From NCBI GenBank assembly GCA_014653355.1, contig JACWEO010000006.1:1-59821 (forward strand): 59,821 nt of DNA, written 5' to 3'. This document shows positions 21,151-22,584 of this stretch, piece by piece (within the stretch, counting starts at the first letter, position 1; each line of letters opens with the position of its first letter). Both the position numbers and the translations under genes were made by a program. This DNA comes from Pelagibacterales bacterium SAG-MED47. Lineage in GTDB: Bacteria > Pseudomonadota > Alphaproteobacteria > Pelagibacterales > Pelagibacteraceae. A model generated the notes under the pieces. That model ran no database searches, had not been told where the DNA came from, and was given only the letters and a program-made list of their open reading frames with translations.

Positions 21151-21378
21151 TTAAATTCTCGAAGTGTTAGATAATATTTGTCTATTAATACTTTGAGATT
21201 TTGCATAAGCTGCTTTTTCTGAGTTTAAAGTTCCAAACTTAGCAATAAATTTGTTTTTTTCTTTAACATATTGAATTTTTATAACCAAATAAAGTGAAAG
21301 AAAACTTAAAATAGTAAAAGCAAAAGCTGACCAAACATAAAGTCCATAACCATTCATTAAAAACATTTCATAAATCAT
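21151..21378 (-). CDS. ccmD: Heme exporter protein CcmD
   Basis: CcmD is the small membrane protein that helps release heme-loaded CcmE from the CcmABC complex. The 75-residue sequence has the family signature near its start (MNGYGLYVWSAFAFTILSFL) with a single membrane segment, followed by a charged cytoplasmic tail. The tail is longer than in most CcmD proteins. It overlaps ccmC by 4 nt, as expected in a ccmCDE order. Confidence 0.88.
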   Translation of the reverse strand: MIYEMFLMNGYGLYVWSAFAFTILSFLSLYLVIKIQYVKEKNKFIAKFGTLNSEKAAYAKSQSINRQILSNTSRI

Positions 21379-22082
21379 AATCTATCTAAACCTTTATTTT
21401 TAATCTTTATCAGTTCTGTATTATATTTCATTAAAAAAATTAATAGAGAAAATAGAGCAAATGCCGCAGTCATAATTAATAAAGGAAACAACATTGAAGT
21501 ATGGATGGTTGATTTAGATAAGATATTAATTGATGCAGGTTGATGTAAAGTATTCCACCAATCAACAGAATATTTAATTATAGGAACATTAATGATGCCT
21601 AAAATTGTAATTATAGTCGTAACTTTAAAAACTTTTTCATCTTTTTCATAAATTCTCCAAGCAACTAAATATATCAAATAAAATAAAACCAAAATTAACA
21701 TTGAAGTTATTCTTGCATCCCATGCCCACCATGTCCCCCAGGTAGGTTTGCCCCAAATCGAACCTGTAACCAATGCTATAATACTAAATACTAAGCCAGA
21801 TGGAGCTAAACTTTTTGAAATTAAAAAAAAATTCCTAATCTTAAATATATACCCAATAACAGAAAAAAATGTGATAGAAGAAAAAATTCCTAATGAAATC
21901 CAAGCTGATGGCACATGCACATACATAATTCTCACTGAATGACTTTGTTTATAATCCTCTGGTGAAAGTATTAGAGCTTCTGTTAATCCAATAGAGAGTA
22001 TAATAACAAATAGCAATAACACATACTTAGGGGCCTTGACCGTTATAGAAAAAATTTTGTTAGGTTCAAAATGTTTAAACAT
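21375..22082 (-). CDS. ccmC: Heme exporter protein CcmC
   Basis: CcmC is the six-span membrane protein that presents heme to CcmE. The 235-residue protein carries the tryptophan-rich WWD motif GKPTWGTWWAWDARITS near residue 125. The flanking heme-ligand histidines are also present (VHVPSAW near residue 55, TLHQPASI near 180). It is the first gene of the ccmC-D-E-F-G-H transcript. The usual ABC partners CcmA and CcmB are not in this window. Confidence 0.95.
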   Translation of the reverse strand: MFKHFEPNKIFSITVKAPKYVLLLFVIILSIGLTEALILSPEDYKQSHSVRIMYVHVPSAWISLGIFSSITFFSVIGYIFKIRNFFLISKSLAPSGLVFSIIALVTGSIWGKPTWGTWWAWDARITSMLILVLFYLIYLVAWRIYEKDEKVFKVTTIITILGIINVPIIKYSVDWWNTLHQPASINILSKSTIHTSMLFPLLIMTAAFALFSLLIFLMKYNTELIKIKNKGLDRL

Positions 22083-22134
22083 TGATAATTAGTATCTTAA
22101 TTTTATTTATGAACTTTTATTACGAAAAAATTAT

Positions 22135-22194
22135 CTGATCAAGAATGTAGAGGGAGATAATAACGAAGGGGTGTTAATTAACACTCTTGATCAG
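22135..22194 (-). ncRNA. Hairpin leader upstream of ccmC, unassigned
   Basis: A perfect 10-bp inverted repeat (CTGATCAAGA at 22135-22144, TCTTGATCAG at 22185-22194) encloses 40 nt. Directly inside one arm lies a second perfect palindrome, GTGTTAATTAACAC (22171-22184). On the minus strand the outer stem is followed by ATAATTTTTT, so it could also act as an intrinsic terminator. A TTGACA box lies just upstream. It may be a regulatory leader or attenuator for the ccm genes, a small RNA, or the terminator of hspQ with a large loop. I do not recognise a known riboswitch. Confidence 0.5.
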
Positions 22195-22204
22195 GTTATT
22201 CTAT

Positions 22205-22228
22205 TAAATTAATAAACCCCTGTGTCAA
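22205..22228 (-). promoter_or_regulatory. Probable promoter for the ccmC leader
   Basis: Reading minus, a perfect TTGACA (22223-22228) is followed after 16 nt by a TAATAG that could be the -10 box. A transcript from here would begin a few bases before the first arm of the ccmC leader hairpin. The -35 match is perfect and the -10 is moderate. Confidence 0.45.
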
Positions 22229-22263
22229 AGTTTTGTATTAATTGTGTTTAAAAAATGATTTTT

Positions 22264-22584
22264 TTAGTTCGAAAGCTTGAAATAGCTCGATCCCTTTTTT
22301 CCTGAAAAAATTTCCTCAATTAAAGGGTGTTTTATTGGTTCATCAGAGTCATCAACAAGTAAATTTTGTTCAGATACATAAGCTTCGTAAGTAATTTCAT
22401 CATTTTCGGCGAGAAGGTGATAAAAAGGCTGATCTTTTCTGGGTCTAACATTTTTGGGTATTGATTGATACCACTCCTCTGAGTTATTAAACTCAAAATC
22501 AACATCATAAATCACACCTCTAAATTCAAAATGCTTGTGTTTTACAATATCACCAATTGAGAATTTTGCTTTTTGAATTGCCAT
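22264..22584 (-). CDS. hspQ: Heat shock protein HspQ
   Basis: HspQ (YccV family) is a small heat-shock protein that in enterobacteria modulates Lon proteolysis and binds hemimethylated DNA in vitro. The 106-residue protein has the whole domain: KFSIGDIVKHKHFEFRGVIYDVD, PRKDQPFYHLLAEN, then YVSEQNLLVDDSDEPIKHP. No ribosome binding site is visible. A heat-shock-type promoter motif ends 8 nt before the start codon, so the mRNA may be almost leaderless. Confidence 0.92.
   Translation of the reverse strand: MAIQKAKFSIGDIVKHKHFEFRGVIYDVDFEFNNSEEWYQSIPKNVRPRKDQPFYHLLAENDEITYEAYVSEQNLLVDDSDEPIKHPLIEEIFSGKKGSSYFKLSN

Follow-up and report, generated by a model that had tools for sequence, protein, structure and literature searches.

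A hairpin on the minus strand is located between hspQ and ccmC in the window, i.e. the whole stretch of 59,821 nt from Pelagibacterales bacterium SAG-MED47 that was analysed. Pfam confirms hspQ (YccV-like), ccmC, ccmE and ccmF in the window, and CcmD is found just below the Pfam cut-off (25.3 vs 25.6 bits). The features of the locus are collected in Table 1; labels such as g1 or f1 denote genera and families within this analysis. In the initial annotation a perfect 10-bp stem with a nested 14-nt palindrome was described at this place. The stem is there (22135-22144 with 22185-22194) and is extended to 14 bp once G-U pairs are counted, and the palindrome GTGTTAATTAACAC is also present at 22171-22184, but it is lost in the aligned relatives and was rejected as a conserved part. 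The 64-nt stem-loop is predicted to fold with -19.6 kcal/mol (z = -7.8, 0/200 shuffles as good), in a test on a stretch trimmed to the stem, which favours a good z; the full 107 nt of the initial annotation give z = -2.6 on the minus strand (5/200 shuffles as good) and z = -0.9 on the plus strand (37/200). A simple promoter/terminator scan, admitting loops of 3-8 nt only, returned no site at the hairpin. The hairpin observation as a whole is confirmed as real.

Table 1. Features of the hspQ-ccmC locus in the window
Feature	Position	Strand	Basis or remark
hspQ (YccV-like), constant upstream neighbour	22264..22584	-	PF08755, 104 bits
26-bp box AACA-N9-CAAA-N2-TNNGNCA	22223..22248	-	exact match in window
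Predicted -10 hexamer TAATTT	22206..22211	-	spacing to box
Predicted RNA start at stem foot	~22195-22200	-	spacing of box, -10 and stem
Stem 5' arm, 14 bp	22181..22194	-	pairing and covariation
Loop, 32 nt	22149..22180	-	stem search and fold
Near-invariant C-rich loop motif UUAUCUCCCUC	22150..22160	-	C run predicted unpaired
Stem 3' arm	22135..22148	-	pairing and covariation
T6 run after stem	22125..22130	-	not conserved across family
ccmC, first of ccmCDEF; downstream here, not in g6/g9	21375..22082	-	PF01578, 116 bits

Occurrence and covariation of the stem

In the first sample ccmC was found in 26 of 37 same-genus genomes, and the hspQ-ccmC spacer (intergenic region, IGR) carries the hairpin in all 26 of them. 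With the first model, R1, a match was obtained in 306 of 399 genus genomes; of the 57 that combine a completeness of at least 90% with a contamination of at most 5%, 53 had one. ccmC is present in none of ten R1-negative genus genomes (90-97% complete), which suggests that the whole locus is absent from those ten assemblies. Among close relatives, hspQ is followed in 80/80 loci by a stem of 12 bp or more that closes a C-rich loop, this set being the best 80 (76 distinct) of at least 565 hspQ matches. An independent check is provided by ten family genomes of other genera that were negative by R1 in a wide search with stricter filters: nine have ccmC, and the hairpin architecture is carried by all nine of these ccmC loci. 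The other nine hspQ loci from other genera (L156-L162, L164, L165) count less, as they were chosen by R1. It can be said that the element is present at every hspQ locus of the family that was read. Further R1 hits (L163, L166-L169, L173) do not lie at hspQ and were judged to be chance. What looked like a second copy per genome proved in 13/13 re-searched genomes to be the element itself read on the other strand (27-36 vs 64-89 bits), and four others, spread over three genomes and scoring 23-27 bits, seem to be random hits. The ccmC match in L052 (G024) is broken in two; the pieces overlap and contain stop codons, which would fit a frameshift or an assembly error.

Beyond the family, a second model, R2, gave five hits in 386 class genomes, three of them in the own genus; the other two (L331, L332) have no hspQ nearby and were judged to be chance. 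R2 missed two g12 genomes which bear the element, so its negative result beyond the family is weak. In the sister family f2 (24-genome sample), an ispZ-like gene comes next after hspQ in 4/4 of the loci read. Viral contigs gave 0 exact matches to one element pattern.

The stem was aligned at two levels. The genus alignment comprises 24 of the 26 IGRs, window included (L045 and L047, identical to L044, were left out; L044 and L049 were end-trimmed). Its stem is 98.9% paired and both-side changes occur in 8/15 pairs, with 0-1 of 500 shuffles as good. The family alignment comprises 32 of 33 hairpins, 31 of them distinct, from ten genera (g1, g5-g9, g12, g15-g17); among its rows are 13 of the 26 genus IGRs and L170-L172 from the own genus, while L182 (same hairpin as L181) and L160 (g5, with the stem of L159) were left out. 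Here 96.9% of the stem is paired, a percentage biased upward because the stems were found by seeking pairs, and both-side changes are seen in all 15 pairs. The 104 double-change cells compare with a shuffled mean of 33.4 and are reached by 0/500 shuffles, controls with the alignment slid give 5-20, and for further pair types, the weakest of the measures, 2/500 shuffles do as well. The stem varies from 12 to 19 bp among relatives (24 with mismatches in one), and the sequence of the window's stem may be wholly replaced, e.g. by GTCCAGTTTGAAG or TAGCCTAATTAAGTG. On the pattern of these changes the hairpin is kept by evolution across at least ten genera.

The strand is indicated by the same data. 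The sense-strand score in the own genome is 77.1 bits for minus vs 34.3 bits for plus, and G-U pairs occupy 62/453 cells of the family alignment on the sense strand; because many pairs are G-U, an RNA on the strand of hspQ and ccmC is indicated. A palindrome acting as DNA rather than RNA is unlikely, as those cells would be mismatched on the other strand. The structured minus-strand RNA suggested by the initial annotation is thus borne out, with the compensatory changes it had proposed to look for abundant among relatives and the strand fixed by the G-U pairs.

Promoter-like box and C-rich loop

The 26-bp box is located just behind the hspQ stop. At least 10 of its 12 specified letters are matched, with the best placement taken, in 26/26 genus IGRs, 80/80 close-relative loci and 21/21 loci of a diverse set; the three sets overlap, 4 of the 26 IGRs being equal to a locus of the 80 over 150 nt, and the diverse set includes three same-genus loci (L170-L172). 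A T stands exactly 11 nt past the box in 25/26, 79/80 and 18/21 loci respectively, and the full TAnnnT at the -10 place is found in 18/26, 52/80 and, in the most diverse set, 7/21. The stem starts 22-29 nt past the box in 126/127 rows. Since the spacing of box, -10 and stem is near-fixed, the RNA start is expected at the stem foot, where transcription is predicted to begin. The TTGACA promoter which the initial annotation placed ahead of the stem needs a different reading: the letters are there (TTTGACA on the minus strand at 22223-22229), but TTGACA is the 3' end of the conserved box, and as a usual -35 it was rejected, for the conserved -10-like hexamer lies only 11 nt away. The box is probably a promoter element bound by a regulator. 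Elsewhere, one-mismatch copies of the box clearly outnumber those of the backward control in five of the seven genomes; G438 has 14 vs 10 in the control and G430 has 6 vs 7. A one-mismatch copy of AACA-N9-CAA..TTGACA lies beside an aceF-like (lipoyl-domain) gene in L195 and L201 (~1500-1530), without TAnnnT at 11 nt and with the gene name read from DNA; it is possibly a site of a shared regulator.

While the stem drifts freely, the C-rich loop stays near-constant. UCUCCCUC is found in the loop of 26/26 genus IGRs, and UCUCCC with 0-3 extra C in 79/80 close-relative loci, the C run being 3 to 6 long among the 80. In some other genera the usual motif is replaced by ACUCCCU, and the loops of three g7 loci and of L178, L157 and L172 read ACUCCC or UUACCCUC. 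Loop length ranges from 17 to 37 nt among relatives, and the C run is unpaired in 7/7 predicted folds. A feature of base-pairing sRNAs with a C-rich seed is seen here, namely a conserved C-rich stretch on a conserved hairpin, unpaired by prediction. Two single loci deserve mention: in L172 (2537-2586, same genus) the loop reading UUACCCUC is shortened and lacks UCUCCC with the stem intact, and in L158 (g9, ~2563-2670) a tandem duplication with a 74-nt period has doubled the hairpin's 3' half, CUCCCU included.

Relation of the element to hspQ and to the ccm genes

The ccm genes can be separated from the element in genera g6 and g9. In L156, L158 and L162 (g9) and L164 (g6) the box, the -10 region and the hairpin all stand behind hspQ, and in all four loci the next same-strand genes are a pagL-like gene and then an FMN-dependent dehydrogenase-like frame (Pfam gives PF09411, PagL, for L156 and L164, and PF01070 for L164). 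In five of eight g6/g9 genomes ccmC was located, next to ccmD and ccmE, and the 300 nt before it contain such a hairpin in 0/5 (L213-L217) and no CTCCC; the best stem score there is at most 15 vs at least 28.5 for six true elements. Both arrangements were seen in two of these five genomes (G427, G466), the only two in which the hspQ locus was read. The ccm order in L213-L217 is ccmD-ccmE-ccmC, away from hspQ, and ccmF is on the opposite strand in the four g6/g9 loci where it was seen. Judged from this gene order, the hairpin is attached to hspQ rather than to ccmC.

The T-run past the stem on the minus strand, to which the initial annotation drew attention, exists in the window as T6 but is absent in most relatives beyond the close group. 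Among the genus IGRs 5/26, and among other-genus loci 1/17, have a run of at least five T within 12 nt of the stem; by a looser rule (at least five T among the next 8 nt) a T-rich tail is found in 39/80 close relatives. Termination may matter in some species, yet it is not a common function. Because g6 and g9 uncouple ccmC from the element and the T-run is rare, the element is not a leader specific to ccm, nor is it a conserved terminator. The initial annotation had read the locus as a leader or attenuator of the ccm operon controlled by heme, iron or redox state, with a small RNA among its options. Its structured minus-strand RNA stands and the ccm leader or attenuator is not supported: in g6/g9 the element stays with hspQ ahead of pagL, the T-run is unconserved and the spacer is variable. 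A ccm riboswitch or attenuator as the core function was rejected, since the element occurs without ccmC and ccmC without the element, and so was the class of intrinsic terminators and attenuators, given loops of this length, the rarity of the T-run and the negative scan. The assumption of a heme or redox switch of ccm is removed by these results.

Standing among known RNAs and proposed function

Rfam 15 recognises only tRNA and ffh in the window, both elsewhere; the latter is the ffh sRNA motif (RF01793, 2539-2592 on the minus strand, 50.4 bits), a known SAR11 motif. The best chance match at the locus itself reaches 16.6 bits vs a threshold of 60, nor did any family turn up when nine more loci were scanned, of which eight belong to other genera and one to the own genus. 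The statement of the initial annotation that no riboswitch is described here agrees with this, no Rfam 15 family reaching its gathering threshold. The SAR11 motifs reported in the text of Meyer et al. 2009 (rhtB, pntA, babIM and SAR11_0636 elements; SAM-V; rpsB, rpsL and ffh) are, like the present one, conserved structured RNAs of intergenic regions, and the rhtB element is also a single hairpin with a conserved loop. The hspQ-ccmC IGR is not in Table 1 or section 10 of that article and 'ccm' does not occur in its main text; IGRs of at least 26% G+C were kept there, whereas the hspQ-ccmC IGR of this genome has 23.9%. The element is not mentioned in section 9 of the Red Sea TSS paper (PMC5069720), and neither 'ccm' nor 'hspQ' occurs in the main text of the iron limitation study (PMC2864753). 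The RNA appears to be undescribed in the literature searched, which comprised articles without their supplements.

According to the text of PMC3861533, exposed UCCC in hairpins of staphylococcal sRNAs serves as a seed that pairs with translation start signals, and the SAR11 hairpin, like the Staphylococcus aureus Rsa family and RNAIII (PMC3861533) and Listeria LhrC (PMC4132741), shows an unpaired UCCC or C-rich motif. Those RNAs, unlike the present one, belong to another phylum and have known targets; the likeness is one of motif.

The alphaproteobacterial CcsR or 'cuckoo' RNAs have C-rich CUCCUCCC loops. They share the class Alphaproteobacteria with the SAR11 hairpin. CcsR is described in the text of PMC10253847 as co-transcribed with a DUF1127 gene and closed by a Rho-independent terminator at the operon end, whereas the SAR11 element is a single hairpin with hspQ as neighbour and no conserved terminator. 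DUF1127 was detected in 0/10 proteins scanned (hspQ, ispZ-like, ccmCDEF and Bax1-I of the window; two PagL and one FMN-dependent dehydrogenase of g6/g9), and membership in the CcsR/cuckoo group was rejected as no adjacent DUF1127 gene was found.

A stem that changes freely below a near-fixed C-rich loop resembles a regulatory RNA with a loop seed. The preferred reading, to which a probability of about one half is given, is that the element is a small regulatory RNA of SAR11 whose C-rich seed is exposed. Such a small structured RNA of Pelagibacteraceae would be made from its own predicted promoter behind hspQ with transcription starting at the stem foot, and the stem, a drifting scaffold, would present the fixed C-rich loop as a seed. 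The loop could then act in trans on a few mRNAs by pairing with G-rich stretches (GGGAG- or GGAG-like) near their start codons, and this pairing would lower their translation or stability. Transcripts may run into ccmC, so that the same promoter could serve ccmC where it is adjacent. Because most genera have no T-run and the 3' end is unconserved, an sRNA from this locus would depend on Rho or on processing for its 3' end. A generic anti-Shine-Dalgarno role is disfavoured, since just 5 of the 61 crudely called starts in the window are preceded within 20 nt by an SD-like tetramer, a lower rate than in gene interiors (48 of 305), loop-start duplex energies in the window are no better than in gene interiors, and eight genomes show no enrichment of GGGAGAT closely upstream of ATG (115 vs 106 in the backward control). 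Targets, if any, would therefore be few. In the window 11-mers like the loop complement number 29 vs 13.8 in shuffles, an excess which GA-rich coding strands may explain. The fuller picture, a family-wide single-hairpin trans-acting sRNA whose C-rich seed singles out the few SD-bearing mRNAs of organisms that mostly lack such sites while a regulator reads the fixed-geometry box, is doubtful; it would make the RNA a post-transcriptional regulator acting globally in SAR11.

The main rival, tentative as it is, is a 5'-leader hairpin acting in cis on the next gene (ccmC, or pagL in g6/g9) as a 5'-end stabiliser, a protein docking site or possibly a riboswitch or attenuator. The predicted RNA start at the stem is what such a leader would have, with same-strand ccmC 28 to 59 nt further on in 26/26 genus IGRs, same-strand pagL next in the four g6/g9 loci and, in the loci read generally, a same-strand gene within ~100 nt downstream of the RNA; T-rich sequence past the stem in part of the genus also speaks for this rival. 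As stated in the text of PMC5069961, ccmC mRNA (SAR11_0287) of 'Ca. P. ubique' HTCC1062 rose 10.35-fold in stationary phase under sulfur limitation and 2.18-fold in the stationary control, which speaks for a leader and with which a short or partial transcript from the element's promoter would also fit, if HTCC1062 carries the element; ccmD and ccmF are absent from that text and ccmE occurs only in a reference title. However, the downstream gene is swapped while the element persists, the distance to the start codon varies, the T-run is not conserved across the family and no alternative structure sequestering the start site was noticed in an unsystematic look.

The hairpin could instead form the 3' end of the hspQ mRNA, as a terminator or a stabilising 3'-UTR hairpin, for it lies close behind hspQ in the loci read, even without ccmC, and is followed by T6 in the window and T-rich sequence in many close relatives. 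This is improbable, because the loop of 17-37 nt has a conserved sequence, 21/26 genus IGRs and 16/17 other-genus loci lack a run of five T, and the conserved promoter-like box and -10 stand between hspQ and the stem; the possibility raised in the initial annotation that the element is found only as the hspQ terminator is not supported either, on the same grounds of T-run and promoter. Quite improbable, too, is a protein-binding or titrating RNA, in which the C-rich loop would be held by an RNA-binding protein and not by mRNA; a near-constant loop on a free stem and the lack of an enriched complementary target agree with it, but no candidate protein is known.

SAR11 are the most abundant bacteria of the ocean, and the element is conserved among them in its promoter-like region and its loop. 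Its coordinates are exact and probes are at hand for an experimental test.
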